Positions 6,296 through 46,697 of a DNA stretch of 64,000 nucleotides are shown here, piece after piece. Each line of letters opens with the position of its first letter. Positions within the stretch are counted from its first letter, which is position 1. The notes under the pieces were generated by a model, which searched no databases, had not been told where the DNA came from, and saw only the letters and a list, made by a program, of their open reading frames with translations. Source of the stretch: a virus. The position numbers and the translations under genes were made by a program. Location of the stretch: IMG/VR virus record IMGVR_UViG_3300001460_008786, positions 1 through 64,000 of that record; one strand, written 5' to 3'.

Positions 6296-7210
6296 ATGAA
6301 TTTCAGCATAGGAACAGATCCAGAATTTATTTTAACCGATATAGAGTATACACCAAAAAGCTCAATAGGAATATTAAAACATAAAGATAAAGCTGTTCCG
6401 GGCGGTAAAAATAAAATTTACTATGACAATGTTCTAGCCGAAGTAAATACAACTCCTTCTTTTACAAAAGAAGACTTTTTAAAAAATATTAAATATTCTT
6501 TAAAAAGTCTAGTTGAAGTGATTAAGCCTTTGAAGATCAGCAAAGATTCTTTTGCTATTTTTTCTAGCTCAGAATTAAATCATAAAGATGCTTTTGAGTT
6601 TGGTTGTGAAAGAGAGTATTGCGCATACGATCTTGATGTACACCAGATGAGCTTTGCACTAGGGGATGCTAGATTTGCAGGCGGACATGTTCACATAGGA
6701 ATTGATATAAAAAATCAAGAAGAACAAGTCATGCTTGTTCGAATGTTAGATTTGTTTTTAGGAATTTCTTTAATTTTAATAGATGATTCAAGAAATTGTC
6801 ATAAAAGAAGATCTTGTTTTGGCAAACTTGGAAGATATAGAAAAACGTCATATGGGATTGAATACAGAACTCCAAGCAATTTTTGGATATTTTATCCAAG
6901 TTTAATTGAACTTGTATATGATATTGTTGAATTCGTCATTGATTTTGTAAAAAGAGAAAAGCATTTTAATTTTTGGAAAATAGATTATGACAAATTAAAT
7001 TCTGATGAGTTCTGGAACAACGGTGGCAATCCTTCTGCGTGTCATGATTGCTTTGGATATGACGTAAACTTTTTAAAAAAAATAACCAAGAAAGAAGAAT
7101 TGAAATTAAATTCAAATATAATTCAAATCATCAATTTGAATCTACCTAAAAAAATACTAGAAAAAGTAAAAGAAATTAAAGATAATAAAACAAGTTGGGA
7201 TTTTATTTAG
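6296..7210 (+). CDS. phiEco32-type amidoligase (COOH-NH2 ligase family)
   Basis: A 304-residue protein matching the phage amidoligase family related to gamma-glutamylcysteine synthetase: IGTDPEFILTD at the start, then YYDNVLAEVNTTPS, and RFAGGHVHIGID near residue 140, the conserved core for ATP/metal and glutamate binding. Members are predicted to make peptide-like amide bonds on proteins or cell-surface molecules using ATP. Length fits the family. No partner such as a class II glutamine amidotransferase is adjacent. TAAAAT ends 6 bases before the ATG and there is no ribosome site. It overlaps the convergent 7203 gene by 8 bases. Confidence 0.8.
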   Translation: MNFSIGTDPEFILTDIEYTPKSSIGILKHKDKAVPGGKNKIYYDNVLAEVNTTPSFTKEDFLKNIKYSLKSLVEVIKPLKISKDSFAIFSSSELNHKDAFEFGCEREYCAYDLDVHQMSFALGDARFAGGHVHIGIDIKNQEEQVMLVRMLDLFLGISLILIDDSRNCHKRRSCFGKLGRYRKTSYGIEYRTPSNFWIFYPSLIELVYDIVEFVIDFVKREKHFNFWKIDYDKLNSDEFWNNGGNPSACHDCFGYDVNFLKKITKKEELKLNSNIIQIINLNLPKKILEKVKEIKDNKTSWDFI

Positions 7211-7661
7211 GACCACGTTTCATAGGCACAGCTCTTAACTTTTCAACATGCTTGTCTTTTTTGCCTTTTAAATTGTCCATCATATCTTTTAAATACTTGA
7301 CCATTTCTGATGGCTTTTCACATGGGCATTTTTCTGAACTTTGAACCATAACTGACTTTTTATTTTTGTTGTAAAATCCTTTAGAAGTAATAAAACAACC
7401 TTTGTCAACTTCTGGATTGAAGCTAATCATTCCAACCCATTCTCCATCATCCCAATTTCTTGAAGAAACTAAAATCCTTAAAGGTTCATTGTCAAATACT
7501 AACTTGACATGATATCCACAATTTTTCATCCCAGCACTTACGTATGATAATGCTATCTTAGCAAATCCGTTCAAGACATCTTCCATATTAGTTTTATAAT
7601 TAACCGCTACAGAGTATCTTGATGCATCTTCTCTTAATGAATACCATTCTGTGAATTTCAT
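7203..7661 (-). CDS. Capsid-tag protein of unknown function
   Basis: A 152-residue protein starting MKFTEWYSLREDAS, one of eight proteins here sharing this tag; L-R-E fits the T4 gp21-type cleavage pattern [LI]-x-E. The rest contains a compact alpha/beta stretch (RILVSSRNWDDGEWVGMISF) and a basic tail (KKDKHVEKLRAVPMKRGPK). No enzyme motif is recognised. It follows the gp13-like neck gene on the same strand, 15 bases after its end, which fits a late head gene. Confidence 0.7.
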   Translation of the reverse strand: MKFTEWYSLREDASRYSVAVNYKTNMEDVLNGFAKIALSYVSAGMKNCGYHVKLVFDNEPLRILVSSRNWDDGEWVGMISFNPEVDKGCFITSKGFYNKNKKSVMVQSSEKCPCEKPSEMVKYLKDMMDNLKGKKDKHVEKLRAVPMKRGPK

Positions 7662-7676
7662 ATTTCTATATAGTCC

Positions 7677-8576
7677 TTAATCCATAGATATATAAGGCAA
7701 ATCCCCAAATTTGAAAATCAAATCTTCAAACCATTTGACCCTATCTTCTCTTGCTTCTGTTAAGAGTTGTTGACCATCTAAAACAACACCTCCACCAACT
7801 CCGGGAACATTTTGGTACTTGCTTCTAATTCTTCCAAGTATTTCTTTTGCATATGTCAAAGCTCCTTCTTGCATGGCTTGAGTAACATCTCCCCAATCTT
7901 TACATTTTTGAAGATAGTGAACTATAACCTTTTGAGGTCGGTAGGGAATGGGATATAATTTAATAGTATTCAAACCTCCAACAAATTCCCAGCCTCCAAG
8001 ATTAGAACTTACTCTTGAAAACATTTCTTCGTATTGCTTGTAAAGAACCCACTCCCCCATTCTTCCCCATATAGGTTGGACAGGGTCTATCATGCCTCCT
8101 TGAATAGAAGCATAAGATCCACCGGGATAAAAATACTCTATAGGTATAGCTCCATCTAAATCACTACTTTGAAAACCAAAGCTTCCTATTTCTTTGTAAA
8201 AGACATTTCTCACCAATCCTACATCTGGTGGCATCTCATAGACACTTTTCCCAGCGACAGAATCAAACACATGATACGAGAAATACTCTCGCCCAGCATA
8301 ATCTTCAAAAACCTTAAGCGCTTGATCTACGCAAAAATCTAAAGCTTGTTCATCAAACTCTAATTTCAATGTAGGCGCTCCTAACATCAGCAAAACATAA
8401 TCTCTGACTTGTTCTCTGACTTTTTCTCTTTTTTTTCTAGATTTGCAATTAACTCTTGGGTCTATTGGATCAACTGGACCCAAATCTGAGCCTCCGGAAG
8501 AAGAACACAAAATAGAAGACATGTTGCCTTTTGTTGGTCTGTTTATTGCCAAAGTATTATTTCCGCTACAACTCAT
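7677..8576 (-). CDS. 13: Neck protein, gp13-like
   Basis: A 299-residue protein. After a low-complexity N-terminal 50 residues comes VREQVRDYVLLMLGAPTLKL followed by EFDEQALDFCVDQALKVFEDYAG, close to the start of T4-type gp13 head-completion proteins (R-LGAP-vK-v-L-deQ-l-avd-Al). Later KLYPIPYRPQKVIVHYLQK and a helical C-terminus with KEILGRIRSKYQNVPGVGGGV fit the same family. It would join head to tail with gp14. An AAGGAG ribosome site lies upstream, below a TATATATAAT element. The gp14-like gene is at 10202 on the other strand. Confidence 0.62.
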   Translation of the reverse strand: MSCSGNNTLAINRPTKGNMSSILCSSSGGSDLGPVDPIDPRVNCKSRKKREKVREQVRDYVLLMLGAPTLKLEFDEQALDFCVDQALKVFEDYAGREYFSYHVFDSVAGKSVYEMPPDVGLVRNVFYKEIGSFGFQSSDLDGAIPIEYFYPGGSYASIQGGMIDPVQPIWGRMGEWVLYKQYEEMFSRVSSNLGGWEFVGGLNTIKLYPIPYRPQKVIVHYLQKCKDWGDVTQAMQEGALTYAKEILGRIRSKYQNVPGVGGGVVLDGQQLLTEAREDRVKWFEDLIFKFGDLPYISMD

Positions 8577-8636
8577 ATCATAATCTCCTTTACATTATAT
8601 ATAAAAAATAAAATAGAAGTTACTAAATTAAAAATT

Positions 8637-8939
8637 ATGTGGGATCAATATTTTAATAAGCCTTATTCTGGACCTGTCAAAAAATATCTATTTGAAGTGT
8701 TGACAGAAAAATATGAAAAAAATGAGCCTGTTATAGACAGGCTCATGCATACCTTCGATATGAAAAAAGATATTGAGGAATTAGTTGAGTTATTTGGAGA
8801 TATTTACCAAAGTGGATATGAAGTTTCTTATAACCAATTTAAAGAAGAAATAGCAAAGCATGATTATTTAACCAAATTGCTTCCTCCTGAAGAGAAGGTC
8901 AAACAACAGAAAAATAATGCAATTTTCAAAGAAGACTAA
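8637..8939 (+). CDS. Small protein of unknown function
   Basis: A 100-residue, charged, largely helical protein (MWDQYFNKPYSGPVKKYLFE...). No motif is recognised. TAAATT stands 7 bases before the ATG and no ribosome site is seen. It is divergent from the neck gene and overlaps the 3' end of the convergent 8936 gene by 4 bases. Confidence 0.6.
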   Translation: MWDQYFNKPYSGPVKKYLFEVLTEKYEKNEPVIDRLMHTFDMKKDIEELVELFGDIYQSGYEVSYNQFKEEIAKHDYLTKLLPPEEKVKQQKNNAIFKED

Positions 8940-9703: not shown

Positions 9704-9790
9704 TTTCATCCTTAACACTCTAAATAAAATAGTTCGATTTTTTGTAAAAAACACATATATATTAAGCAAACCTAATTAGGAGAAAAAACA

Positions 9791-10180: not shown

Positions 10181-10201
10181 AAAAAATAACACGGAGGTAG
10201 A

Positions 10202-10750
10202 ATGGGAATTAAAAACCCAGATGGCACACCATACAAGCCAGCAGGAAGCATTAGTCAATTTGATCAAACAAATCCAGAAAGGTGTTTGTTTGATGATCTA
10301 GATTCAGAAGCAATAAAAACATTTGGATCTCCAGTTTATTATTATGAAGTTTTTATACAAACTGGATCTTTGGATAAGTTGTATAGGGAAGACAGAGGCA
10401 AACTTTGGTCCAATAATCCTATTACTTTGTATGCAAGTTACGAGCCTATTCCAAATCAAAACTATCAAAATGCTTTTGGAATAGATGCTCCTGATGAAAT
10501 CATGTTTGATATGAACTATAAAGATGTTTTAGAAAAAATAGGACATCCTCCAAAAATTGGATCTAGAATCCATAGTCCTCACAGAAACGAAGACTGGGTA
10601 ATCATTCAAAGAAACATTGGGGAAACTATGCTTTGGAGCAAAGTCAGGCTTCAAGTGTTGTGCCAAAAGTTCCAAGAGAACATTACCACAGGAGAAGGTA
10701 AGGTTTCAAATAAGAAGCCTGAATTTAAATTACCTGACTGCGAAGGTTGA
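10202..10750 (+). CDS. 14: Neck protein, gp14-like
   Basis: A 182-residue protein with TFGSPVYYYEVFIQTGSLDK, LYASYEPIPNQNYQNAFGID and HSPHRNEDWVIIQRNIGETM. T4 gp14-type neck proteins share this plan: G-x-x-V-Y-Y near the start, a region describing the outer edge, and a C-terminal strand W-x-k-v-R-L-q-v. With gp13 it would seal the head and receive the tail. A GGAGG ribosome site precedes it. Confidence 0.55.
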   Translation: MGIKNPDGTPYKPAGSISQFDQTNPERCLFDDLDSEAIKTFGSPVYYYEVFIQTGSLDKLYREDRGKLWSNNPITLYASYEPIPNQNYQNAFGIDAPDEIMFDMNYKDVLEKIGHPPKIGSRIHSPHRNEDWVIIQRNIGETMLWSKVRLQVLCQKFQENITTGEGKVSNKKPEFKLPDCEG

Positions 10751-10813
10751 GGCCCAATTTAAAATTTCATTAGATTGTGGCATACATAATAAAAACAATA
10801 ATAGGACAAACAA

Positions 10814-11404
10814 ATGAAAAATTTTTCAACATGGCTAGAAAATAAAAATTCTAATAAAAAAGAATTTGTCAAAAGTGTTATGGATAAGTATAGTAAAAAA
10901 CTTCCTGCTATTGATAGAGGAAGATACACAAATCTAGAAGACGAAGGCTTAGAAGGTCCTATAAGATTAAAAAGTGGCAAAGTAGTTTATTACGATACAA
11001 AAGCAGGCAAGTATTATGACAGAGATAGCGACATGTATATAAGTGATGAAGATTACATGGCTCATGAAAAAAGCGAATCAGTTGAACAAGCAAAAAAAAT
11101 AATAGCAGAAATAACAAGTATGGCTGACGTTCAAAAAACATTTAGACAAAATAGATTGGACTTAGGCGTAGTTGGTGCCGAAACTGTGCAGAGCATAATG
11201 CAGGGAATTCAACTAATGGCTTTGAAAGATACAGAAGACTTCATGTTCTTAATAAGAATGCTCAGAAATAAAATTAACGATCACGATCCAGCATTGGCAA
11301 AGGAAATATTGCAAGGCGCAAGAATAATGGCTAGTAGAGCGCAACAATCTGCAAAGAGGAAAGAAAAGCCCGGAATGCCAGCGGAAGACAATTCTGATCA
11401 GTAA
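10814..11404 (+). CDS. Capsid-tag protein, helical C-terminus
   Basis: A 196-residue protein beginning MKNFSTWLENKNSN, a member of the shared N-terminal tag set. The middle holds a beta-hairpin-like stretch (GPIRLKSGKVVYYDTKAG), and residues about 90-180 are strongly helical (DVQKTFRQNRLDLGVVGAET, then FMFLIRMLRNKINDHDPALA). Immediately downstream of the gp14-like neck gene on the same strand, it may be an internal head or neck-associated protein. Function unknown. Confidence 0.7.
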   Translation: MKNFSTWLENKNSNKKEFVKSVMDKYSKKLPAIDRGRYTNLEDEGLEGPIRLKSGKVVYYDTKAGKYYDRDSDMYISDEDYMAHEKSESVEQAKKIIAEITSMADVQKTFRQNRLDLGVVGAETVQSIMQGIQLMALKDTEDFMFLIRMLRNKINDHDPALAKEILQGARIMASRAQQSAKRKEKPGMPAEDNSDQ

Positions 11405-11409
11405 CAAAA

Positions 11410-11628
11410 TTAATTCATAGGTGGCTCTTGATTAAAAACCTGTTTGACAAAGTCATCGGGAATTCTTTCTTCTTCTTTTTTGTGAAAGAATTCTATAGGT
11501 CTAGCTTCATGAACTTTCCAAAAAATAAATCTTGGAATTTTTAATGGATCTCTACTTTTCTCTTTTGATGCAAAAAAAGTTTTTCTTGGTCTTTGAGATT
11601 TTATTTTTTTAAATTTAAAACTTTTCAT
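11410..11628 (-). CDS. Small basic protein of unknown function
   Basis: A 72-residue Lys/Arg/Phe-rich protein (MKSFKFKKIKSQRPRKTFFA...). It overlaps the stop/start junction of the upstream glycosyltransferase by 4 bases (ATGA-type coupling), so the pair is probably co-translated. No motif is recognised. Confidence 0.55.
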   Translation of the reverse strand: MKSFKFKKIKSQRPRKTFFASKEKSRDPLKIPRFIFWKVHEARPIEFFHKKEEERIPDDFVKQVFNQEPPMN

Positions 11629-12404
11629 ACTTTGTAAAATTCAGAAATATAATTAATTTTTTTGTAGTTGTTTTTTTCTAAAACAACATTGTATGTTTGT
11701 CTCATTAAATCATGATGAACAAACTCTTTTCCATTGTAACAAAAGTCAATGTTTCTTCTATTGCTCTTAGATGGGTTTTTTTCTTGATAATTATTGGTTC
11801 TAATTGTGTTTGGATGAGGGATGTGCGAAACATATTTTTCAACATTGAAAAATATAATTTCGATTAGCTTTTCAGTCTTGTCTTTCATTCTTCTGTACAT
11901 GTCAATGTCTTCCCAGCCCCAACCTTTCAACTCCTCTCTATAAAAAGGAAAATTTGATTTGTTAAAAAGACATAGACCCGAAAGTTCTTTGTTGAACTGC
12001 CAGCTTCCATGAATCATGTAATCATAACTTTCTTTTAACAGTTTGTTCTTAATGTTTAAATCATAAAGCCAACTTTCATCTAGACATATGTAATCTGCAT
12101 CTACTTTTAAAATGACTTCGTTTTTACAAAAGTCAGTAGCTAAATTTAAAGACTTGGATAAAGAGAAATATTTTTGATCCACAACTTCAAGCAAAGTCAA
12201 CTTTTTATTTTTTAATATTTTTTTGAATTCATAATTATTATATAATTTAGATTTAGAACACCAATCCACAATAATTACATCATCTACAATATCCAAATCC
12301 AACCAAGATTTTAAAGAAATTAAAAGATGGGATTCTCGATCCATACATGTAACAATCACAGATATTTTAGTTTCTTTATTTTTACTTGATTTTACCCAAA
12401 ACAT
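11625..12404 (-). CDS. Glycosyltransferase, GT-A fold (GT2-like)
   Basis: A 259-residue protein. ISVIVTCMDRESHLLISLKS is the donor-binding start of GT2 enzymes, EVILKVDADYI carries the DxD metal site (D-A-D), and KGWGWEDIDMYRRM is the acceptor/catalytic segment of the galactosyltransferase-like C-terminal module. Donor and acceptor are not readable. It is divergent from the gp15-like gene. A close relative is encoded at 48159 (shared ...CMDRE/CMNRE, SLKSW/SLQSW, and WEDID/WEDSD). Confidence 0.85.
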   Translation of the reverse strand: MFWVKSSKNKETKISVIVTCMDRESHLLISLKSWLDLDIVDDVIIVDWCSKSKLYNNYEFKKILKNKKLTLLEVVDQKYFSLSKSLNLATDFCKNEVILKVDADYICLDESWLYDLNIKNKLLKESYDYMIHGSWQFNKELSGLCLFNKSNFPFYREELKGWGWEDIDMYRRMKDKTEKLIEIIFFNVEKYVSHIPHPNTIRTNNYQEKNPSKSNRRNIDFCYNGKEFVHHDLMRQTYNVVLEKNNYKKINYISEFYKV

Positions 12405-17605: not shown

Positions 17606-18148
17606 TTAATTTCTATCTTTATTGCTTATAAAAACTTGCTTTCCATTTTTTATCATTACGTGATTATCGCAATATTGAAAATAATTAAGAAATCTTTTTT
17701 TAAGTTCGTTATAATTTCGAGCGGTTCTATAAAGTTGTCTAAAATGATTTAAAATACATGTGGTCATATAATTAAAAGCTTTGCCCTTTCTCGAATCAAA
17801 TCTATTTATTTTTTCAAAACAAATAACAACTCCTTCTTGTATAGCATCATCTTGATCTATTAATTGAAATTTCGCATAATTAGTTATATTCTCAGATAAA
17901 GTATAAAATGCAGTGGCGAGATGCTCTTTAGAGTTTTCAAATTCTTTTTCTAGCTCAAAATATTTTTTATTTTTATTTAAAAGATCAACTTCATATTCTT
18001 TATGCTTTATGCTTTTTGACTTTCTTCTTTTTATAGTATTCTCTAAACTTTCTATAATTAATTTTGTTTTTTCTTTTTGTCTTTTAGAAGTTTGAAATTT
18101 ATTAATTATTTGTTCAAAGTACTTGTTGTTTAAGTATTCGCTTTTCAT
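17606..18148 (-). CDS. 55: Late-transcription sigma factor, gp55-like
   Basis: A 180-residue protein. Residues about 95-160 match sigma region 2 as in T4 gp55: DQDDAIQEGVVICFEKINRF, then DSRKGKAFNYMTTCILNHFR and LYRTARNYNELKKRF. It would direct host RNA polymerase to phage late promoters. I chose the ATG at 18148, with AAGGAG four bases before it, over a TTG one codon earlier. The gene starts inside the 3' end of the upstream glycosyltransferase gene (35-base overlap), tying its translation to that gene. Confidence 0.8.
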   Translation of the reverse strand: MKSEYLNNKYFEQIINKFQTSKRQKEKTKLIIESLENTIKRRKSKSIKHKEYEVDLLNKNKKYFELEKEFENSKEHLATAFYTLSENITNYAKFQLIDQDDAIQEGVVICFEKINRFDSRKGKAFNYMTTCILNHFRQLYRTARNYNELKKRFLNYFQYCDNHVMIKNGKQVFISNKDRN

Positions 18149-18995
18149 CAATCTCCTTTGTCCAAGTTTCTATTCTAGAAATCGCCTCTTGTGTTGCTTC
18201 TTCTAGCCAAAGTGAAACTTGTTTATAGTATTCAGGGCTATATAAAAGACCAGAGGTTAAACTCCTACAATGGTCGATATATTTGTCTTTGTTTCTTTGA
18301 AAATTTTCTTCTTTTCCTATTAATTTAACAGGCAAATTGTATTGTCTTAAAATTACATTTCCTAAAATTTCAGTGTCTGGCCAATTTGGTCTTGTTGGGT
18401 TTGGTTTGTAGTCTTTAATATCATAAAGAGAAGAAAGTCTTCTCATGCTCCATCCAAATCCAATCTTATCCATTGTTTCCATATGGTACATGCTGGCTGT
18501 GTGCGAAATCATTCCTACCCAATCCTCATGCTGTCTTGGGCTTATTTCATATCCAACCGCTGGGTATTTGTCGTCTAAATGACAACCACAATATTTTAGT
18601 AAATATTCTATAAAATCATTTTTCATCAAAAATACATCTGCGTGTGTGGCAAACATAAATTCTGTTCTACACACAGCTTGTGCTAAATCCATTGCCATAG
18701 CAGGAAAATCTGACGGATGACAAACACCATTAAGTCTTAAAGAATGAACTTCAACATCATCGTCAGCAAGGCTATTTATTTTTTCTAAATTTTCTTTTTT
18801 AGAACCAGTATCTACAATTACAATATAAGGCTTTATTGTTTGAAGCTTTAATATTTCAACGCATATTTTTAAAGATTCATATGTGTCTAGCACGGGTATG
18901 GCCGCTGTAACCTTATATTCCCAAGGCTTTTTTGAACACGACCCTTCCCAAGGCCTTTCCTCTACTGATTTGTTTCTTAAAGGTGCAATTGTCAT
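18114..18995 (-). CDS. Glycosyltransferase, GT2-like
   Basis: A 293-residue GT-A protein: VTAAIPVLDTYESLKICVEI at the start, YIVIVDTGSKKENLEK for donor binding, MFATHADVFLM in the DxD position (H-A-D-V), and RPNWPDTEILGNVILRQ as a possible acceptor region. The N-terminus EERPWEGSCSKKPWEYK is unusual. The gene overlaps the gp55-like start. A divergent small gene begins only 18 bases upstream, so their promoters overlap. Confidence 0.75.
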   Translation of the reverse strand: MTIAPLRNKSVEERPWEGSCSKKPWEYKVTAAIPVLDTYESLKICVEILKLQTIKPYIVIVDTGSKKENLEKINSLADDDVEVHSLRLNGVCHPSDFPAMAMDLAQAVCRTEFMFATHADVFLMKNDFIEYLLKYCGCHLDDKYPAVGYEISPRQHEDWVGMISHTASMYHMETMDKIGFGWSMRRLSSLYDIKDYKPNPTRPNWPDTEILGNVILRQYNLPVKLIGKEENFQRNKDKYIDHCRSLTSGLLYSPEYYKQVSLWLEEATQEAISRIETWTKEIDEKRILKQQVL

Positions 18996-19013: not shown

Positions 19014-19199
19014 ATGAAATGGGAAAAATCAATATTTGCTTTAAATTCAATTCTAGAAAATCCATTTGTTCAAACAGGATACAAAGAATTAATTAAATAT
19101 TATGAGTCCAATGAAATGCAATATGAAAAAGAGTGTTTAGATTTTTTATTGAAATTAAAGTTTGAAAATGACAACGATTCAAATAATAACAAAGAATAA
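19014..19199 (+). CDS. Small acidic protein of unknown function
   Basis: A 61-residue helical protein (MKWEKSIFALNSILENPFVQ...). TATAAT lies 9 bases before the ATG. Its 3' end overlaps the start of the next gene by 32 bases in another frame, suggesting coupled translation. No motif is recognised. Confidence 0.5.
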   Translation: MKWEKSIFALNSILENPFVQTGYKELIKYYESNEMQYEKECLDFLLKLKFENDNDSNNNKE

Positions 19200-20115
19200 C
19201 GAAAGCACCTTATCTAAAACATTAGATTCAATTAATAACATTAAATCTAAAAAAATAATATTAGATTTGGGAAGCACTGACAAAACAATTGAAATATGCT
19301 CTGGTTATGATGGATTAAAATTATTTAATTTAGATGAAGAGAAAAGCTATGCAGAGATAAGAAATGAGTTCGCAGAAAAAGACCAAGCCAATGTGTACTT
19401 AAATCCTTGGGACACATTGATTAAAGGCGAAGACTTCTTAAACGATATAATTGAGAATCAAGAAAAATGGAATGACCCATTTTTTGTTTATGTCTTGGAA
19501 AACAAAATAATATCAAAAGAAATAAGAATTTGGAAAAATCAAAAGTTTGAGAATCCAGTCTATGAATCAATAAATGCTGCTGGTGAATTGGAACCAAGAA
19601 TAATAATTTATTCTAATTCGAACCAAGCAGAAGATAGAAGACAAGAAAATTTAAATAAAACAAACAAGTGGATAAAAGAAAAGCCTTTGTCTTTAGAGCC
19701 TTATTATTATGCGGCTTGTTGCCATCTCTCTTTAAGAAACTATGAAAAATTTATTTACTACTCTGATAAATATTTTTTAAAAGAAACAAAAGTTGGAGAT
19801 TCTTACATAATTTTAAAATACTACAATGCACAAGTCAAACTGCACTTAAAAAAAATAAAATCTGCCGTGGAGTGTGTTCTTTTTTGCTTGTCCTACAAAC
19901 CTTGCATGTCAGAGTTTTGGTGCTTGTTAGGTGATATTTATTACAATCAAAAAAAGATAAACAAAGCAATTTCTTTTTATGAAAACGCTTTGATAATTGG
20001 ACAAAAAAGAAAAAACTCTGATTTTCTTCCGATAGAGCTGGTTAGCTATAAAGAATACCCAGAACAAATGATAAAAGCATTAAATAAAATTAAAAATGAA
20101 GCCAAGCCTATTTAA
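19168..20115 (+). CDS. Glycosyltransferase-like protein with TPR C-terminus
   Basis: About 315 residues from the ATG at 19168 (MTTIQIITKNNESTLSKTLD); a TTG two codons earlier is possible. Residues 1-100 look like a GT2 donor domain (KKIILDLGSTDKTIEICSGY). The usual DxD is not obvious (NVYLNPWDTL at its place), so it may be inactive or unusual. Residues about 175-300 are TPR-like (YYYAACCHLSLRNYEKFIYY; GDIYYNQKKINKAISFYENA). It may bind a glycosyltransferase substrate rather than act alone. Confidence 0.65.
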   Translation: MTTIQIITKNNESTLSKTLDSINNIKSKKIILDLGSTDKTIEICSGYDGLKLFNLDEEKSYAEIRNEFAEKDQANVYLNPWDTLIKGEDFLNDIIENQEKWNDPFFVYVLENKIISKEIRIWKNQKFENPVYESINAAGELEPRIIIYSNSNQAEDRRQENLNKTNKWIKEKPLSLEPYYYAACCHLSLRNYEKFIYYSDKYFLKETKVGDSYIILKYYNAQVKLHLKKIKSAVECVLFCLSYKPCMSEFWCLLGDIYYNQKKINKAISFYENALIIGQKRKNSDFLPIELVSYKEYPEQMIKALNKIKNEAKPI

Positions 20116-28283: not shown

Positions 28284-28844
28284 ATGGATGATATAGAAAT
28301 AGAAAATCTTTTAGAAAATACTAAAAGCAAAAAAATAAAATCTAAGCCAAAAGGCAAAAGAGTTGAGCTTCAATTAGCGAAAGATTTAAATGAAAGATTT
28401 GATTCCATTTTTACAAAAAATCCAAAATGGGGAAAATTTTCTAGGACCATAGGATCAGGAAATCGTTGGGGGCAGAATGTTCATTTGTCAAAAGCCTCAA
28501 TGGACAACTTTTCTGGAGATCTGGTTTGCCCTCCTTCTTTTAAATTTGTAATTGAATCAAAAGGAGGATACAACGAAATAGATCTTTGCTCTGCTTTTTC
28601 AAAAGGAAATTCTGAGCTAGATTCTTTTTTAAAGCAAGTTTCTGATGATTCCGAAAGAACAGGAAGAAAACCTTTGTTGTTCTGGAAAAAAGATAGAAAG
28701 CCTAGGTTGTCTTTTTTAAAGATAAAAGATATAGGAAATATAAATAAATTATCTTTTGACTACCACATGAAATATAAAGATTGGATAGTTATAGAATATA
28801 AAGATTTAATTAGTTTTAAAGATGACTTTTTTTTTGAAAACTAG
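28284..28844 (+). CDS. PD-(D/E)XK nuclease
   Basis: A 186-residue protein. KGKRVELQLAKDLNERF, SRTIGSGNRWG, FSGDLVCPPSFKFVIESKGG (the D-x14-E-x-K core: G-D-L ... I-E-S-K) and IDLCSAFSKGNSELDSFLKQ form a restriction-endonuclease-like fold of the RecU/Holliday-nuclease kind seen in phages. It probably cuts branched or foreign DNA in recombination, packaging or host-DNA breakdown. The leaderless-type TATAAT fits early expression with replication genes. Confidence 0.75.
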   Translation: MDDIEIENLLENTKSKKIKSKPKGKRVELQLAKDLNERFDSIFTKNPKWGKFSRTIGSGNRWGQNVHLSKASMDNFSGDLVCPPSFKFVIESKGGYNEIDLCSAFSKGNSELDSFLKQVSDDSERTGRKPLLFWKKDRKPRLSFLKIKDIGNINKLSFDYHMKYKDWIVIEYKDLISFKDDFFFEN

Positions 28845-29185
28845 ATTTTATTTACAGGAACCTCTAAATTGCTTAAGATTTTTTCTATCTCTGAAACACA
28901 AGACTGCAAGACGTTTTCTAGTTTGTTTTCTACTTCTACGCTTTTTTTTATATTATATCCACATTTTTGTAGAGTTTCCAAATGCTTGACTTGATCATTT
29001 GGCACTTTTGATCTAATTATTCTTCTTATTTCTTTTACAATGTTATCTGCTGCTCTATTGATATCTCTAGAGCCTATGTTGTCCAGATTATCTATCAAAT
29101 CTTGAATAGCATTTAATATGTCTCCAATTCTTCCTGTTAGATAAACAGTATTTTCATTTAATATAAATTCTTTAAAATTAATCAT
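28841..29185 (-). CDS. Capsid-tag helical protein
   Basis: A 114-residue protein starting MINFKEFILNENTVYL; the tag has L-N-E in the T4 gp21 cleavage pattern. After it the protein is a helical bundle (DILNAIQDLIDNLDNIGSRD, ...KLENVLQSCVSEIEKILSNL). It overlaps the upstream zinc-finger gene by 8 bases and the convergent nuclease gene by 4. Function unknown. Confidence 0.7.
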   Translation of the reverse strand: MINFKEFILNENTVYLTGRIGDILNAIQDLIDNLDNIGSRDINRAADNIVKEIRRIIRSKVPNDQVKHLETLQKCGYNIKKSVEVENKLENVLQSCVSEIEKILSNLEVPVNKI

Positions 29186-36706: not shown

Positions 36707-36735
36707 ATTATATCAGACAATGCTATTTTTGTCGA
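36707..36735 (-). promoter_or_regulatory. Promoter for gp47, near-leaderless
   Basis: TCGACA (36735-36730), 17-base spacer, TATAAT (36712-36707), ending 8 bases before the ATG at 36698. It overlaps the end of the 36723 gene. Confidence 0.65.
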
Positions 36736-37010
36736 TCTTTATTCTTTACATAATCCTTTAAAAGATCCCAGATATTTAAAGATTTAATTTCTTGAGCATT
36801 AACAGGCTTGTTCTCAGCGTTCTGGGCATCTATTCCACCTCCTAAAGGATCTGCTCCTAAAGATGCGTCGAAGTTTGGGCTGGGCGCGTTTGGCGGTGGA
36901 GGTGGCGAACTAGAAGCTCCTAAGCCAATTGAAGAACTATCGCTTCCTGTCTCTGGGGCTGGGCTTTCTGGTGACGCTTCTTCAACTTCATTTACATTGT
37001 ATTTTTTCAT
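36723..37010 (-). CDS. Small Pro/Gly/Ser-rich protein
   Basis: A 95-residue low-complexity protein (a PPPPP run and GLGASS-, SLGADPLGGGID-like stretches) ending in a short helix SLNIWDLLKDYVKNKDRQ. Disordered linker plus C-terminal helix is typical of a small binding protein. TATATA stands 5 bases before the ATG (also readable as TATAAATA). Opposite-strand frames here are shadows. Function unknown. Confidence 0.5.
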   Translation of the reverse strand: MKKYNVNEVEEASPESPAPETGSDSSSIGLGASSSPPPPPNAPSPNFDASLGADPLGGGIDAQNAENKPVNAQEIKSLNIWDLLKDYVKNKDRQK

Positions 37011-37845: not shown

Positions 37846-38427
37846 TTATTTTAAATTAGAAATCTGTGGTATGTTTCTAGAGAACCTATCCCAATTCTGT
37901 TCCGCCCACTTTTTAAATTTAACTTCTGCGTTCTTTGGCCCAATTTCATTTGTTTTTCCAGTAGTTTGAAATTCTAATGCATGAGTGGCTTCATGAATAA
38001 TTGTGCTTGCTATTTCTAATATTGCTGCTTTCGAGTCTCTAAGTTCTTTTAAAATTTTATTGACGTTAACTTTTATTACATCTGAAGGTTGAATTTTTGA
38101 TACGTCTATATCTGGAAGATAATCTTTTAAAACTTGATTTGGAAGTTTTTCTAAATTTTGAAGAGCTTTTGGATCGTTCCCAAATTTAAGTCTTATTTTA
38201 GACAAAACATCATTTCCAATTAATTTTTTATTTTCGCCCGAGCTATAAAGGCCATAAACGGATGATGTCAAAGGAGCTATTGTGCTTATGTTTTTCAAAA
38301 GATTTCTATCATACATTCTTACAAGTTGCACTGCGTACTTAGCCTTGTCGTAAATCACATTGAGCTGTCGTTCATCTACTTGATCAGTACCAATCGTATT
38401 TTGTTCAAACCATTTTTTAAAATTCAT
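37846..38427 (-). CDS. Capsid-tag zinc metalloprotease (HExxH)
   Basis: 193 residues. N-terminal tag MNFKKWFEQNTIG, then helices, then IIHEATHALEF at about residue 147-157, a gluzincin/metzincin-like H-E-x-x-H zinc site, with acidic residues 12-25 further on (NEIGPKNAEVKFKKW) that may supply the third ligand. The tag suggests packaging in the head and delivery to the host cytoplasm with the DNA, where it could cleave a host protein. A ribosome site AGGTGA lies below a TATATAAAG element, unlike the leaderless map gene next door. Confidence 0.72.
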   Translation of the reverse strand: MNFKKWFEQNTIGTDQVDERQLNVIYDKAKYAVQLVRMYDRNLLKNISTIAPLTSSVYGLYSSGENKKLIGNDVLSKIRLKFGNDPKALQNLEKLPNQVLKDYLPDIDVSKIQPSDVIKVNVNKILKELRDSKAAILEIASTIIHEATHALEFQTTGKTNEIGPKNAEVKFKKWAEQNWDRFSRNIPQISNLK

Positions 38428-38485: not shown

Positions 38486-38866
38486 ATGAAGTATAAAATT
38501 ATGCATAGGAGGCAAACTTTGAAAATAAGCAAAGAATGGATTCACGCTATTTTTCCCAAAAATAGCTCTTATTTTAAATTAAAAAAAAGTGATTTTTCAC
38601 TCTCAGGTTGGAAATATATTTCTAAATATCAATACCATTATGTTGAATTGGCGATTATAGAAACAAAAGAAGAGTCAGATTTGTTTCATTTGTTTTGGGA
38701 ATCTCCAATGAAAATGGAATTTGGAGCAATAATATCAAAAGAAAAATTAAAGAATTCAGATTATAAATTGCATTCAAATATTGAAAATATAAATTATTAC
38801 ATTAATGAAAAACACAAAAATAAGATAAAACACAAAATCTTTTGTACCTCTATTTTTGTATCATAA
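38486..38866 (+). CDS. Protein of unknown function
   Basis: A 126-residue basic protein rich in Lys, Tyr and Ile (MKYKIMHRRQTLKISKEWIH...). No motif is recognised. It overlaps the convergent glycosyltransferase end by 6 bases. No ribosome site. Confidence 0.55.
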   Translation: MKYKIMHRRQTLKISKEWIHAIFPKNSSYFKLKKSDFSLSGWKYISKYQYHYVELAIIETKEESDLFHLFWESPMKMEFGAIISKEKLKNSDYKLHSNIENINYYINEKHKNKIKHKIFCTSIFVS

Positions 38867-39676
38867 GGCGCTTAATTGTTCAGAAAGTTTGTTGGCTAGT
38901 TGAATATATTCTCTGTAGTACTTCAACACGCATTGATTATCATTCAAATGAGAAAAGTGAAAAAACACGGACTCAAAAACATTGTTGTTAGTGTCTGTTG
39001 ATATGACTTTATCTCCCGAAAAAGTTTTTTTTAATTCTATGTCATTCCAAGAAGCTAAGTTACACCCTTTATGTTTGCATACTTTTACATTGTCAAAATT
39101 AAGATGAATAAAGTCTAAGTATCTTTGGTCTACATAAAGACCAATTCCTGGGCTTTCTTCACACTTCCAATAACAACAGTCAGCCCACCAACTTATGGCA
39201 TCTAAAGATTTTTTAGATGCGCCAATAAACCCAGCATTAAAAAATCCATGAGTAAAGTTTACTGAAAAGTTTTTGTAAGAAGGAGAAGAAGGTCTCCAAT
39301 GTCGGGTCAATAATAAGCCATCTATATCTTCTAGTAAAAAATTCCAATCAGAAACAAAGTAGATGTCTGGGTCTACGTAGATTACCTTGTCGTATTTTTT
39401 TAAAAGTTTTTTTATCAAAAAAGGTTTTGTAGCCCACCGAGTATTGTCATTGTAAAAATTATTGTTCAAATTAATTAATTCATATTCTTCTATGAAATTT
39501 TTATCTAGGACCTTTACATCATCAAGTTGACCAGATACGTTTTTTTGTCCTGTCGCCGGTGCGTTTAAAATATAGAAGTCCACATCTTCTTTATATTTCT
39601 TCATAGAAAACAATGTAGACATTGCTCTTGATAAGAAATTTGTAGATGCAATTGTGCAAACGCAATTTTTATTCAT
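38861..39676 (-). CDS. Glycosyltransferase (GT-A, GT8-like)
   Basis: 271 residues. CVCTIASTNFLSRAMSTLFS at the start, KKYDKVIYVDPDIYFVSDWN with the D-x-D metal site, and HGFFNAGFIGASK are features of GT-A enzymes related to GT8. It overlaps the upstream sulfotransferase stop by 8 bases, so the two are probably co-translated and may act on the same glycan. Confidence 0.78.
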   Translation of the reverse strand: MNKNCVCTIASTNFLSRAMSTLFSMKKYKEDVDFYILNAPATGQKNVSGQLDDVKVLDKNFIEEYELINLNNNFYNDNTRWATKPFLIKKLLKKYDKVIYVDPDIYFVSDWNFLLEDIDGLLLTRHWRPSSPSYKNFSVNFTHGFFNAGFIGASKKSLDAISWWADCCYWKCEESPGIGLYVDQRYLDFIHLNFDNVKVCKHKGCNLASWNDIELKKTFSGDKVISTDTNNNVFESVFFHFSHLNDNQCVLKYYREYIQLANKLSEQLSAL

Positions 39677-40423: not shown

Positions 40424-41482
40424 ATGAAATTTACAGAATGGCTAGCAGCAGAAGAAATGATAACTGAAGTTGACTGGAAAGATGATTTTGAAGATGTAAA
40501 AAAACAATGCGTAAATCCAAAAGATGCAGTAGAGTACTTAAATGCAGTAAGAAAAAATGCTAGTCGTCCATATGGGGACAGAGAAAAATTCCCAGCAAAC
40601 AAACCTTTTGTTCATGCAAAATCTTCTTTCTTTAAGAAAGGAGAAGAAGAGGTAGATATAGATTATTTTATAGATCAAATAACAAAACCTCCAAAAACCG
40701 TTGTTAATACAAATGAAAAAATATTAAAAAGTGGTGGTCCAAATGAATTTGTTTACAAAACTGGAATTCCGGCATTTAGAGGAATAGCCTATGACAAAGA
40801 CAAAGGTGAATTTGTTTACATAAACACCTGTCCCGGAGCAGGAGGTTGTGTTCTTGTGTGTTATGCAAGAAGAGGAAGATACATCCAGTATCCAAATTCA
40901 TATGACAATATGACAAGGCGACTAAATCTTCTTTTGAACGATCCAGAAGAATATGAAAATAGATTATACAAAGAACTCAAATCAAAAGCAGAAGAACACA
41001 AGGCCCTTGAAGGATACAAACCAAAAATCATACTGCGATGGAATGACTCCGGCGATTTTTTTACAAAAAAATACGTAAAGATTGCAGAAGACGTAATTAA
41101 AAAGTTGAATAAAAACAAATACAATGTCGAAAGTTATGCCTACACAAAAACGCCTGATATAAAGCCTGACAAGTCGGTGCAAACAACCGTGTCACTTCAA
41201 CCAAATAAATCAATTTCAAAAGAAGATCAAAAAGTTTCTTTGATTGTTCCCAAAGAATTATTCAAAGGCCTTGACTTTTTAAAAGTAAAAGATGAAGAAA
41301 AATTAAAGGATAATATCTCTGATCATTTTAAATTACCAAAATCTAAAATTTTAACTTATGAAGAAATGAAAAACACTCCAGAAGGAAAAGGTTTAAAATG
41401 GAATGTCATTGTAACTCCAAATGATGGAGATGATGCAGCGTTCAGAAAAGACGTGAAAAGAATTTTACTGACTCAGCACTAA
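40424..41482 (+). CDS. Capsid-tag protein with GP88-like cysteine cluster
   Basis: 352 residues. Tag MKFTEWLAAEEMITE, then from about residue 115 YINTCPGAGGCVLVCYARRG (three cysteines: C-x6-C-x3-C), RLNLLLNDPEEYENRLYKEL, ILRWNDSGDFFTKKYVKIAE, and YAYTKTPD. The order 'CP...C...CYA..., RW-DSGDFF' is that of the GP88-like phage family, whose fold resembles radical-SAM enzymes but whose role is unknown. The tag suggests injection with the genome. AAAAGG ribosome site below an ATATAATATAAA element. Confidence 0.72.
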   Translation: MKFTEWLAAEEMITEVDWKDDFEDVKKQCVNPKDAVEYLNAVRKNASRPYGDREKFPANKPFVHAKSSFFKKGEEEVDIDYFIDQITKPPKTVVNTNEKILKSGGPNEFVYKTGIPAFRGIAYDKDKGEFVYINTCPGAGGCVLVCYARRGRYIQYPNSYDNMTRRLNLLLNDPEEYENRLYKELKSKAEEHKALEGYKPKIILRWNDSGDFFTKKYVKIAEDVIKKLNKNKYNVESYAYTKTPDIKPDKSVQTTVSLQPNKSISKEDQKVSLIVPKELFKGLDFLKVKDEEKLKDNISDHFKLPKSKILTYEEMKNTPEGKGLKWNVIVTPNDGDDAAFRKDVKRILLTQH

Positions 41483-41486
41483 CATG

Positions 41487-41514
41487 TTGATTTACACGTA
41501 TATTTAACTATAAT
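41487..41514 (+). promoter_or_regulatory. Promoter for uvsW, leaderless
   Basis: TTGATT (41487-41492), 16-base spacer, TATAAT (41509-41514), then AAGGTT and ATG. Transcription would start at the ATG. Confidence 0.65.
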
Positions 41515-41520
41515 AAGGTT

Positions 41521-42942: not shown

Positions 42943-42943
42943 T

Positions 42944-43318
42944 ATGAATTTTAAAAATTATCTAATTGATATTGACGGGACAATTACAGATGATGTTCCA
43001 AACGAAGAACCTGAAAAAATGGAAACATGTTTGCCCTACGAAGGTAGTGTTGAAACTTTAAACAAATGGTATGACGAAGGCCATACGATTACTTTTTTCA
43101 CATCAAGAACAGATGAACACAAAGAAGTTACAGAAAATTGGCTTAAAAAACATGGATATAAATATCATCATTTGCTTTTAAATAAACCAAGGGGTGGCAA
43201 TTACGCAATCATTGATAACCATATGTTTAAATCATGCCATTTTACAGGAAATTGGCCTAAAGTAAAAAAAGAAATGGACTCATATGTCCATGATTATAGT
43301 CCATCTTCAAAAATATAA
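42944..43318 (+). CDS. HAD-family phosphatase
   Basis: 124 residues. YLIDIDGTITDD carries the nucleophile D-x-D-G-T; TFFTSRTDEH is motif II; NYAIIDNHMF the acidic C-terminal motif. The small size (no cap domain) resembles phage and bacterial polynucleotide- or sugar-phosphatase domains. Co-transcribed with uvsW. Confidence 0.85.
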   Translation: MNFKNYLIDIDGTITDDVPNEEPEKMETCLPYEGSVETLNKWYDEGHTITFFTSRTDEHKEVTENWLKKHGYKYHHLLLNKPRGGNYAIIDNHMFKSCHFTGNWPKVKKEMDSYVHDYSPSSKI

Positions 43319-43430
43319 TTTTTATCAACTCAGATTTAATAGCATATCAAAAGCTCAATTACATTATGGAATGAAAACCACAATGCAGTAAGACATAGGA
43401 TTAAATCAGATAACTTCCCAGATTGGAACT
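43319..43430 (+). pseudogene. Possible gene remnant
   Basis: A start-less frame preceding the convergent gene reads ...SITLWNENHNAVRHRIKSDN then FPDWNFIDT-stop (about 43345-43442). It has codon choice like the surrounding genes and a protein-like composition but no start codon, so it may be the tail end of a deleted gene. Evidence is thin. Confidence 0.25.
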
Positions 43431-44282
43431 TTATTGACACCTAAGACTTCTATGATATTTTCTTATTGGATTGTTAAATTCCTTTATGGGATGCATTATG
43501 TAAGATTTTTTGCACGACTCGAAATCATCAGTTCCTAAATCACCATCGTTAGATTTACTTACTTCATTGTTAACAGTATATGTAAATGATCCCCCAAATT
43601 TAATTTTGTATTTTTCATATTCTCCTGTTGGTTGTTGAGGAATTGAAAAATTTGCAAATTCTCCTATGCCTCCTCCCAAATGCCAAGCTAAAGTTGGAAA
43701 AAGATGTTCTGAAACATCCCAGCCTTTATATTTAGGATAATAACCTTTATTGAAAGCATTTGTATAATTTAAAATTATTTCAAAAAAGTTCAGCTCTTTT
43801 AATTTTTTCAAAAAATCTTTCTTAAAAAACAAACAACATCCTAACATGTAATAGGTATCAGTTATTTCTTTTCGCAAAAACTTTCCTATGAAAGGAAATG
43901 TATTGTCTTCAAAATTTCTATCCACTTTCTCTTTTTTTAAGTTATTTCCAACCAACCAAGAGTTTCTTTTTTTTAAATCTTGAGCAATATTATTTGCTGC
44001 AAATAAGCAATCCGGCTCTGTATAGCAGTACCAGTCTACATCTTCGCCCCATATTTCCCATGCTTTCATCAGTCCTAATATTACATTTTTATAAGGAGCT
44101 TTATTGGAATTATGACTAAAACCTTTTAGTTTATATGTGTAATTTATGCTTTTGAAATCATCTTTTGAGTAGCCGTCACTCACAAGAAGTATATCTTTAG
44201 ACAAAAAAGATCTAACTGAGTCTAACGTGTCGAGCAAAAGGTCACTTTCTTCGTGACAGTTTAAAACCGTAGCTATTTTCAT
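43431..44282 (-). CDS. Glycosyltransferase-like protein
   Basis: 283 residues. KIATVLNCHEESDLLLDTLD, DILLVSDGYSKDDF and WYCYTEPDCLFA (E-P-D in the DxD position) mark a GT-A domain; YKGWDVSEHLFPTLAWHLGG is the probable acceptor side. Ends with basic residues KYHRSLRCQ. No closer family is recognised. Its start abuts the histidine phosphatase stop. Confidence 0.68.
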   Translation of the reverse strand: MKIATVLNCHEESDLLLDTLDSVRSFLSKDILLVSDGYSKDDFKSINYTYKLKGFSHNSNKAPYKNVILGLMKAWEIWGEDVDWYCYTEPDCLFAANNIAQDLKKRNSWLVGNNLKKEKVDRNFEDNTFPFIGKFLRKEITDTYYMLGCCLFFKKDFLKKLKELNFFEIILNYTNAFNKGYYPKYKGWDVSEHLFPTLAWHLGGGIGEFANFSIPQQPTGEYEKYKIKFGGSFTYTVNNEVSKSNDGDLGTDDFESCKKSYIMHPIKEFNNPIRKYHRSLRCQ

Positions 44283-44900
44283 TTAATAAATTGTCTTTGA
44301 AAACATTATTTCTTTATTATCTCTTATAAAAGTAATTCCACAATTTTTAATTGAAGTATTTTCTTCAAAATCAAAATTAGAATATCTTTCAAAAAGAATT
44401 TCAACAGTGTTAGTAGCTAAAGCGTGTAAACATCTACACACAGATCCATGAGAAACTATTAAATATTTTCCTTTTGGATCTAAATTAGAATAAAAGCTCT
44501 TAACTCTTGGTACGAACTCTGCAAGACTTTCGTCTTTAAAACAAATCTCTTTTTTATCTTCGATCCACGAAAAGTCATAAATATCTTTTCTGTTTCTTAT
44601 CGTCACACAAGGAGAAATTGAATTTTCTTTAGTGACAGAAAATTCTCTTAATTTATAATTAACTTCAAAGGGAACTTTTATAATATGAGATAAAACTCTA
44701 GAAGTTTGCAAACATCTTAATAAAGGAGAAGTGTATCCAATAAAATTTTCAAAAGGGGTTTTTTGAGAAAAAATATTTTTTAACCATCTTGCAGTAACTT
44801 CCATTTGAGTAAATCCATTATTACTCAAAGAGCTATCTAAATCTTCTGTGGTCCCGATGTTGTTAAAGCTTTCTGCGTGTCGAATTAAAACAAGTTGCAT
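44283..44900 (-). CDS. Histidine phosphatase (phosphoglycerate-mutase-like)
   Basis: 205 residues. QLVLIRHAESFNN carries the R-H-A-E nucleophile (H8), YTSPLLRCLQTS the second arginine motif, and LIVSHGSVCRCLH the second catalytic histidine. It probably dephosphorylates a small metabolite. The start overlaps the upstream capsid-tag gene's stop (44900). Confidence 0.88.
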   Translation of the reverse strand: MQLVLIRHAESFNNIGTTEDLDSSLSNNGFTQMEVTARWLKNIFSQKTPFENFIGYTSPLLRCLQTSRVLSHIIKVPFEVNYKLREFSVTKENSISPCVTIRNRKDIYDFSWIEDKKEICFKDESLAEFVPRVKSFYSNLDPKGKYLIVSHGSVCRCLHALATNTVEILFERYSNFDFEENTSIKNCGITFIRDNKEIMFSKTIY

Positions 44901-45208
44901 TAAACTTCTTTAGCTTTTGGAGCCAAAGTATCTCCTGTGATTTTTCGAATAAGATCAGCAATAAGTATACCTCTATCTATAGAATTTTCAATGGTTTCAT
45001 ATTTAGACCTGTCTCTTTCTTTAATATTTTTAATTACGCCTAAATCAAGCAAATCTTGCTTAAGTTTTCGACTAAATTCTTCTGTATTTCTTTGAAGAAG
45101 ATATTTTTTTTCTCTATCTCCAAGATTTTCATAATTAGAAGAAATTGTTCCTAGTATTGCATCTTCTATCACTTCACTTTTTTGTTCAAACCAAACAGAA
45201 AATTTCAT
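44900..45208 (-). CDS. Capsid-tag small protein
   Basis: 102 residues starting MKFSVWFEQKSEVIEDA, then a helical charged protein (YENLGDREKKYLLQRNTEEF, ...SIDRGILIADLIRKITGD). An AAGGA ribosome site lies 26 bases below TATATAAATG, an architecture shared with the tag genes at 38427 and 40424. Divergent from another tag gene (45255). Function unknown. Confidence 0.7.
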   Translation of the reverse strand: MKFSVWFEQKSEVIEDAILGTISSNYENLGDREKKYLLQRNTEEFSRKLKQDLLDLGVIKNIKERDRSKYETIENSIDRGILIADLIRKITGDTLAPKAKEV

Positions 45209-45254
45209 AAATATCCTTGTTTTTAATTAAATTCACATTTATATATACTGTATC

Positions 45255-46058
45255 ATGAGAACATTTAAAGAATGGATAGAAAAAAGACAAGATATTTTTG
45301 GCTTTGAAAAAGAGCAAGAAGAAGACTCGTCGTTTGCCGTAAAAAATCAAGATCCAATTATGCAAGTTGATATTGAGCATATTATGGATGAATTGGCAAA
45401 CACTAAAATCCATGGAAAAAGAGGCAAAATTCCTTATATTAATGAAATACACTGGGGTGACGAAATTGGCTCTTTAAAATTATTGCTAAGTCCCGCTGGT
45501 TCTGGCAAAGCAATAATATCTGGAAAGCAAACTGATCTTGAAAATAAAGATTGTTGGATTTGCAAATCAATAATTCCATATGTGAATCTAGAAGATGCTT
45601 CATTTAGAGATGATGAAAACCTCGCTGATATACTGTATAATAAAATAGATGAAATTGGACCTATAGAAATACCTAAAGCAGAATATTTAAATTTAGAAAA
45701 ACTAACAATTAAGCTTTCTAGAAAATGTTGCAAGCCTGACGTTATACCTAAAATTTTTATATACACAGGAATAAGAGAAGTAGTTAAAGATAAAAATTAT
45801 ATAATAAAATTTGAATGCAAAGGACAAGGAGCAGAGGCTCCGGGAGAAGGTGGAGGAAATAGACTTGAAATGTTTGCCATAGAAACATCTTATAATGATA
45901 AAACTGGTTTGATTAGATGCATGGGTTATGGAGTAACCTCTCCCATGAAAGGCCATAAATGGGAACCACAGCCATCTGATTGGGATGAATATTTTTCTCC
46001 AAAGCAAAAATCAGATGAAATTTGTGAAGCAATTGCCAACGCTTTAAGTATTTTTTGA
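45255..46058 (+). CDS. Capsid-tag protein of unknown function
   Basis: 267 residues starting MRTFKEWIEKRQDIFGF. The body has RGKIPYINEIHWGDEIGSLK, a region with CWICK, and FECKGQGAEAPGEGGGNRLE, and ends in a helical WDEYFSPKQKSDEICEAIAN. No fold is recognised. TATACT lies 5 bases before the ATG. It is next to two further tag genes, 44900 and 46197. Confidence 0.7.
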   Translation: MRTFKEWIEKRQDIFGFEKEQEEDSSFAVKNQDPIMQVDIEHIMDELANTKIHGKRGKIPYINEIHWGDEIGSLKLLLSPAGSGKAIISGKQTDLENKDCWICKSIIPYVNLEDASFRDDENLADILYNKIDEIGPIEIPKAEYLNLEKLTIKLSRKCCKPDVIPKIFIYTGIREVVKDKNYIIKFECKGQGAEAPGEGGGNRLEMFAIETSYNDKTGLIRCMGYGVTSPMKGHKWEPQPSDWDEYFSPKQKSDEICEAIANALSIF

Positions 46059-46196
46059 GGATTTAAAATGATGGGATCTGTTAGTTCTATAGTTCGCTGC
46101 AAAGATTTGGAAAACAAAAACTTTCAAGTTCAGGGTGCATTGTCTAATTTGGATTGTAAAAAAGAAAAGAAAAAAAATAAAACAAAAATAAAAACA

Positions 46197-46697
46197 ATGA
46201 AATTTAGTGAATGGTATGAAATAAGAGAAGCAAAAGAAAAAAAGAAAGTTCCTAAAAAATACCTAAAAGGCTTAAAAGAAAAAGGCGAATACGGATCAAA
46301 AGAAGCAATGAAAAAAGAGATAAAAAAATTCTCAGGCTCTGACGATTACAAAAAAAATTGGGATGCTGATTATAAAAATGGGAAAAGGATAAAAACAAAA
46401 AAATCAGCAGCTACAAAAGCTTATGAGAAAAAGTATGAGTCTAATCTTTTTGAATCTAATGATAATATAGATGTTGCTTTGAAAAACAAATCTGAAAAAA
46501 CTGGAATATCCAAATCAATACTTAGAAAAGTATACAACCGAGGAAAAGCCGCTTGGAATTCTGGACATCGACCGGGTGTTGCTCAAGATCAATGGGCTAT
46601 GGGAAGAGTCAATAGTTTTATAACAGGAAGTGGAGGCGCTCGAAAGGCAGACAAAGATCTTTGGGATAAAGCTAAAAAATCTAGGAAAAAGAAATAA
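46197..46697 (+). CDS. Capsid-tag protein with DUF5824-like domain
   Basis: 166 residues from ATG at 46197 (MKFSEWYEIREAKEKKKVPK). The frame extends to an ATG at 46068 that has a GAGG site, but only the inner start places the shared tag at the N-terminus. The C-terminal 80 residues (EKTGISKSILRKVYNRGKAA, then WNSGHRPGVAQDQWAMGRVN and SFITGSGGARKADKDLW) match the phage DUF5824 family of unknown function. I-R-E at residues 9-11 fits [LI]-x-E cleavage. The protein is very basic and could bind DNA. Confidence 0.7.
   Translation: MKFSEWYEIREAKEKKKVPKKYLKGLKEKGEYGSKEAMKKEIKKFSGSDDYKKNWDADYKNGKRIKTKKSAATKAYEKKYESNLFESNDNIDVALKNKSEKTGISKSILRKVYNRGKAAWNSGHRPGVAQDQWAMGRVNSFITGSGGARKADKDLWDKAKKSRKKK

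Follow-up and report, generated by a model that had tools for sequence, protein, structure and literature searches.

A shared N-terminal tag in a T4-like phage lineage resembles the capsid-targeting sequence of T4 internal proteins

Why would proteins with nothing else in common begin with the same few residues? The question is raised by the virus record IMGVR_UViG_3300001460_008786 (64,655 bases), whose first 64,000 bases form the window analyzed here, a fragment of a T4-like myovirus. An initial annotation had singled out eight open reading frames (ORFs) in the window with similar N-termini and dissimilar bodies, and proposed that this tag is a capsid-targeting sequence (CTS) like the one that sends the internal proteins (IPs) of phage T4 into the prohead core, with a cut site of L/I-x-E (PMC9026906). 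Our results lead us to consider it very likely that the shared N-terminus is a T4-type CTS, that it is coupled to gp21-type processing and that this lineage has expanded its use greatly. Good support for the capsid-targeting reading comes from aromatic residues at the positions of T4 CTS residues 4 and 7, from the recovery of the T4 IPs with a motif matrix and from conservation of the tag among orthologues. In T4, residues 4 and 7 were found by mutagenesis to be critical for targeting, and residues 8 and 10 matter for cutting (PMC9026906).

The eight ORFs and their N-termini are all present in the sequence as first described, although one start, at 46197, is doubtful, lying inside an ORF that opens at 46068. 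The bodies of the proteins are indeed unrelated, the best all-against-all comparison giving E = 0.013. A plain pattern derived from T4 CTS positions 4 and 7, with aromatics at residues 3/4 and 6/7 and a one-residue shift allowed, fits 11 of the 88 called gene starts in the window versus 6 of 310 internal Met contexts (Fisher p = 1.4e-4). Ten other contigs, the window and one relative (G016) not among them, served to train a motif matrix, which found nine window starts at or above its cut-off of 7 bits, where between 0.1 (pooled null) and 0.6 (the window's own null) would be expected. These nine are seven of the tags described initially, a start at 42944 and the partial protein at 1-303; the eighth tag scores 12.3 bits when read from its own ATG at 46197. 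The suspicion that the partial protein might be a ninth member was borne out, as it scores 9.1 bits and has orthologues with the same start. The start at 42944 (MNFKNYLIDIDGT) scores as a tag, but we set it aside as probably a chance match because a HAD-type DxDGT motif lies directly behind it. The glycosyltransferase gene at 48159 (MNLKEFYENN) stayed under the cut-off, at 6.1 bits.

The tag extends well beyond this fragment. With the sheath protein as query we recovered 44 related loci; with the acidic 1-303 protein as bait we reached two contigs only, with the neck protein no relatives, and a scan with a conserved small gene led to contigs of up to 533 kb. In a sheath test of 29 contigs from this last scan, 19 matched the window's sheath at 59-69% identity over nearly its full length, 2 more at about 50%, and the remainder weakly or not at all. 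The sheath of G016 (126.6 kb) is 73% identical to the window's, and this contig is collinear with much of the window. From the sheath identities together with the contig sizes it follows that the window's lineage includes jumbo phages, contigs of 459 and 533 kb being among its members. The plain pattern was enriched at gene starts in 17 of 19 relatives (p < 0.05, lowest 3e-17 in G069), with no significant start enrichment in two short contigs, G004 and G008. Starts scoring at least 7 bits number 9 in the window fragment, 16 in G016, 20 in G053 (98 kb), 18 in G071 (158 kb), 19 in G056 (246 kb) and 43 in G069 (459 kb), counts that include some training contigs, though not the window or G016. The group consensus is near M-K-x-F-K-E-W-L.

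For six tagged families in the window the tag is retained in nearly all orthologues. The gene at 7203-7661 (minus strand; 10.6 bits) encodes a protein with no assigned domain that begins MKFTEWYSLRE/DASRYS and belongs to a ten-member family. In the alignment of this family the second aromatic is present in all ten rows and the first in nine (the exception reads MKSINDWKK), tag and domain lie anywhere from a few to about 46 residues apart, and the Glu before the SRYS domain is invariant, falling within [LI]-x-E in nine of the ten rows. The protein at 45255-46058 (plus strand; 19.2 bits; MRTFKEWIEKRQDIFGF) has an eight-member family, several members of which carry LKE before DIFGF. Structural models of both proteins have a comparable layout: a tag helix at residues 3-8, low confidence at 9-21 and a fold from residue 26 in 7203; a tag helix at 4-10, low confidence at 11-34 and then a folded domain in 45255. 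Neither model has a significant fold match in the PDB; with best E values of only 0.06 and 0.036, respectively, we regard the matches as noise. The leader of the protein at 28841-29185 (minus strand; 17.8 bits; MINFKEFILNE/N) ends in an invariant Glu throughout its family (FKEFILNE, FKNYLIIE, FKEFLLNE, FADFLINE and others) and contains [LI]-x-E in ten of ten members; its weak Pfam matches were rejected as coiled-coil-like noise. The zincin-like protein at 37846-38427 (minus strand; 18.3 bits; MNFKKWFEQN) carries HEATHALE, and both the aromatic tag and HExxH are kept in eight of eight family members. The two remaining families are those of 10814-11404 (plus strand; 15.9 bits; MKNFSTWLENK; weak match to phrog_13298), in the neck and tail gene region, with orthologues beginning MKKFSNWIVEN and MKFSNWINEN, and of the small protein at 44900-45208 (minus strand; 8.3 bits; MKFSVWFEQK), with orthologues beginning MKKFSIWLEEK and MVKFSIWLENK.

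Potential cleavage sites accompany many of these leaders. The LRE, LNE and IRE sites noted in three of the tags (7203, 28841 and 46197) are correct, and further sites are found in the protein at 40424 (ITE at residues 13-15) and in 1-303 (LNE), so that L/I-x-E lies behind the leader in five of nine window tags. Across the whole group, 93 of 241 tagged starts are followed by [LIM]-x-E no more than about 8 residues on; the figures are 16 of 133 for internal controls and 235 of 2396 for untagged starts. Processing of the tagged proteins is not uniform.

The matrix, built from environmental contigs only and without T4, was also applied to T4 itself. The top four of its 259 called genes are gp61.1, IPI, IPIII and IPII, which are the 4 matches at 5 bits or more; IPIII and IPII, at 6.7 and 6.3 bits, do not reach the cut-off of 7. 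The IP leaders are related to each other, so the test amounts to one or two independent recoveries rather than three. Among control sequences from phiKZ (100 kb), SPO1 (50 kb) and T5 (50 kb), 1 of 270 starts matched, with 1 match among 110 genes in phiKZ. The leader quoted for T4 in the initial annotation, MKTYQEFIAE, is right for IPII and IPIII, but IPI reads MKTFKEFTS. The best CTS match in T4, above IPI-III, is gp61.1, the 54-residue product (MKTFKEFIKEDMVAGDSGG) of an uncharacterised gene (NC_000866, 18966-19130, locus L236) with the N-terminus MKTFKEFIKE-D. Judged by its leader, gp61.1 may be an unrecognised internal protein; our literature search found no paper on it in that role.

The initial annotation had held that the lack of a prohead protease in the genome would refute the proposal. 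No gene for a portal, protease, scaffold or capsid protein turned up in the window, which was searched with PF03420, a gp21 profile and phrog_138; the 64.7-kb fragment holds no protease and is too short to decide the matter. The proposal is not refuted on this count, since the window is a fragment devoid of head genes and its relatives do carry such a protease. In relatives, phrog_207, the T4 gp21 family, is present in 14 virus contigs (E 1e-44 to 6e-51), 10 of which encode a sheath 59-67% identical to the window's. Six contigs contain protease, scaffold and gp23-type genes together, and in G071, G053 and G069 the protease gene directly adjoins those for the scaffold and the gp23-type capsid protein. 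The relatives' protease matches T4 gp21 with E 3.9e-23 and their capsid protein matches T4 gp23 with E 1.8e-34; the GEL-HP and SSRG motifs are aligned. T4 gp23 is cleaved at LTE-A; at this place the relatives' capsid protein reads LLAE-AMTDTGD, LMNE-AMTDSGD or LMNE-VSTDTGD.

Late expression of the tagged genes is suggested by their upstream sequences. T4 late promoters have the sequence TATAAATA. Of the tagged genes here, 80 of 213 have this sequence or TATATA in the 60 nt upstream, compared with 280 of 2718 other genes (p = 2.7e-23). One such TATATA late-type motif lies in the short intergenic stretch (45209-45254) from which the tagged genes 44900 and 45255 diverge, and untagged window genes with the motif include those for the neck protein (7677) and tail tube (16821). 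Orthologues of the window's gene at 17606-18151 (in G017, G008, G020 and G002) show weak matches to gp55, the HTVC008M late sigma factor (E 0.0007-0.002). From these weak matches, the product of this gene may be the late sigma factor that acts at the TATATA promoters.

What do the tagged proteins do? The tagged set is large and varies between relatives, and few of the 133 tagged proteins scanned have a Pfam family. The families found are PolyA_pol with and without HD, NUDIX, PfkB-cytidylyltransferase (heptose kinase-like), FMN reductase, nucleotidyltransferases, an Arr-type match, GP88, DUF5824, DUF5856 and DUF5662. In the window, recognizable domains are GP88 in the protein at 40424-41482 (plus strand; 16.1 bits; MKFTEWLAAEEMITE; PF17338, E 3.2e-21), DUF5824 in 46197 and the zincin-like HEATHALE of 37846; neither Pfam nor PHROG pointed to a usable function for 7203, 28841, 44900, 45255 or 1-303. 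The last of these (minus strand; tag MLSYSEYKKLNE) is an acidic protein, incomplete at the contig end, that may be a head-core component instead of cargo. Its orthologues in G016 and G003 begin MLSYKEYKQLNESLYG, other relatives have similar acidic proteins with the starts MISYKTYKLINESLGG, MLSYKQWKTLNESV and MLTFKEWRDLNESV, and counterparts are present in eight relatives. The contig terminates here within near-perfect 11-residue repeats (EEVKAEETAET), and it is probably in this repeat that the assembly broke.

We envision a scenario in which, late in infection, the short aromatic N-terminal helix (F/Y-x-x-W/F/Y) would bind the prohead scaffold core, so that the tagged protein becomes enclosed as the capsid shell forms. 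A gp21-type prohead protease would then cut after [L/I]-x-E behind the tag, leaving the mature protein free in the head to be ejected into the host along with the DNA. The lineage would have expanded this CTS route until each genome supplies dozens of cargo proteins. The sequences themselves show the tag and its conservation, the L/I-x-E sites, the partner genes in relatives, the promoter-motif enrichment and the recovery of the T4 CTS; the binding to the scaffold, the cut, the packaging into virions, the injection and an effector role are what we infer. Several observations weigh against the scenario. Head genes are missing from the contigs of the closest relatives as well as from the window (PF03420, gp21 profile, phrog_138), because these contigs end before the head cluster, and as a result the protease of the window's own phage has not been seen. 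Trp is favored as the second aromatic in this lineage and Phe in T4. Four of the nine window tags (10814, 37846, 44900 and 45255) have no nearby L/I-x-E; orthologues of three of them do have a site (IVE or INE for 10814, LEE for 44900 and LKE for 45255), while the family of 37846 is without L/I-x-E behind the tag.

A role within the head could also differ from the one proposed, with the tag marking core or scaffold proteins that shape the prohead and are then degraded rather than delivered. T4 core proteins are cut at the same kind of site (PMC9026906), and the acidic 1-303 protein, with its counterparts in eight relatives, resembles a core component in composition. Yet the tagged proteins are numerous, differ between relatives and include enzymes that have no obvious part in shaping the head (NUDIX hydrolases, PolyA_pol/HD proteins, FMN reductase and nucleotidyltransferases), and the T4 proteins that bear the motif are injected IPs (PMC12373910); we consider this alternative unlikely. 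Somewhat less probable still is that the tag sorts proteins to the tail, baseplate, membrane or a replication compartment and that its likeness to the T4 CTS is convergent. The position of 10814 among neck and tail genes would suit such a destination, but an independently derived matrix ranks the T4 IPs at the top, L/I-x-E lies behind the tag and a gp21-type protease is present in the group. An AT-rich genome in which many genes start with MKF or MNF could in principle produce the similarity by chance or composition, and the loose pattern does fit about 1-4% of internal Met contexts, 42944 probably among them. This explanation is contradicted by the internal-Met and untagged-start nulls, the control phages and the conservation among orthologues, and we regard it as highly improbable. 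We therefore favor the model in which these viruses probably carry, as far as their genes can tell, a large set of proteins in the head for delivery with the DNA.

The ORF at 46068-46697 (plus strand) has a GAGGA Shine-Dalgarno sequence ahead of its start, opens with MMGSVSSIV and continues, from residue 44, with the tag MKFSEWYEIRE/A and a DUF5824 domain (PF19141, E 5.2e-20); the in-frame ATG at 46197 has no Shine-Dalgarno sequence. MKFSEWYEIRE is thus either a start site within this ORF or a tag enclosed in a fused one. The relatives' MMGSV gene is tagged at its own start (MKFSEFIKLKE-MMGSVGSIV in G016 and MKFKKWLENRQLKE-MMGSVGSIV in G002), and the ORF may therefore be a fusion of two tagged genes; the window's MMGSV part is untagged, unlike the relatives' copies, yet joined to a tagged DUF5824 protein. 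At 36723-37010 (minus strand) the window encodes an untagged Pro-rich protein (MKKYNVNEVEEA); at this place the Pro-rich protein of relatives is tagged (MKTFYDFLVEA, MRTFVNYVKFKLNE). The match to the tagged G017 gene is weak (34% over 93 residues) and there is no tag upstream of the window's gene in any frame; the tag has apparently eroded in the window.

The window's other structural genes encode the neck protein (7677; phrog_211), a tail sheath stabilizer (12444), the sheath (13663; E 2e-74), the tail tube (16821) and a baseplate hub (21485), and an Hc2 gene lies at 10202. Glycosyltransferase-like genes are interspersed among the structural genes, at 11625-12404, 18114-18995, 19162-20115, 38861-39676, 43431-44282 and 48159-49100; the last was checked with Pfam and the others were judged by eye.

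Leader-defined internal proteins are already known in T-even phages, where the IPs are injected and IPI-III inhibit the GmrSD (type IV) restriction enzymes (PMC12373910, PMC9391042), and the idea that a CTS allows T4-like phages to carry varied proteins has been published (PMC9026906). The system described here shares with IPI, IPII and IPIII the aromatics at 3/4 and 6/7, the unrelated bodies, in five of the nine window tags an L/I-x-E site and, within the lineage, a T4-type protease, scaffold and capsid. It differs in its mostly Trp second aromatic, in a site that can lie up to about 46 residues past the motif, in its scale (9 tags within a fragment of 65 kb and as many as 43 on a single contig, compared with the 4 matches at 5 bits or more in T4) and in cargo that includes sizeable enzymes. 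The variable internal-protein loci of T-even phages, with at least 10 Ips across relatives (PMC12373910), likewise hold diverse proteins that are recognized by their leader and presumed to act in anti-defence; the tagged genes here are instead scattered over the genome, and many are conserved in distant relatives. Head ejection proteins of the phiKZ/SPN3US type offer another parallel, with many proteins carried in the head and a protease that cuts after Glu (PMC9026906), but the tag is not enriched in the 100 kb of phiKZ and the window's lineage is T4-like. The Kyanoviridae phages C48C1 and HTVC008M have the same tag, with only 6 and 2 matrix matches, on ORFs annotated as hypothetical apart from a cytidyltransferase; a tagged DUF5824 protein in C48C1, a distant phage, is homologous to the body of 46197. 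Four neighboring tagged genes of C48C1 (locus L005, 11824-15126; 11.9-16.7 bits), including those for the cytidyltransferase and the DUF5824 protein, form what we predict is an internal-protein cluster in Kyanoviridae. New here are the scale, the Trp-preferring consensus and the separable cleavage site, and a partial literature search found no published report of a tag system in the window's lineage or at such scale.

On balance we lean slightly towards a broader view, in which a T4-like lineage reaching jumbo size would have turned a portable CTS into a general delivery system that places dozens of enzymes and host-takeover proteins in each virion, the targeting motif and the cleavage site being separate modules joined by variable linkers. 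The motif nominates T4 gp61.1 as a candidate internal protein. More generally, a tag that can be read from sequence predicts which hypothetical genes encode virion cargo, and so points to candidates for the proteins that would act in host takeover or against host defences in the first minute of infection.

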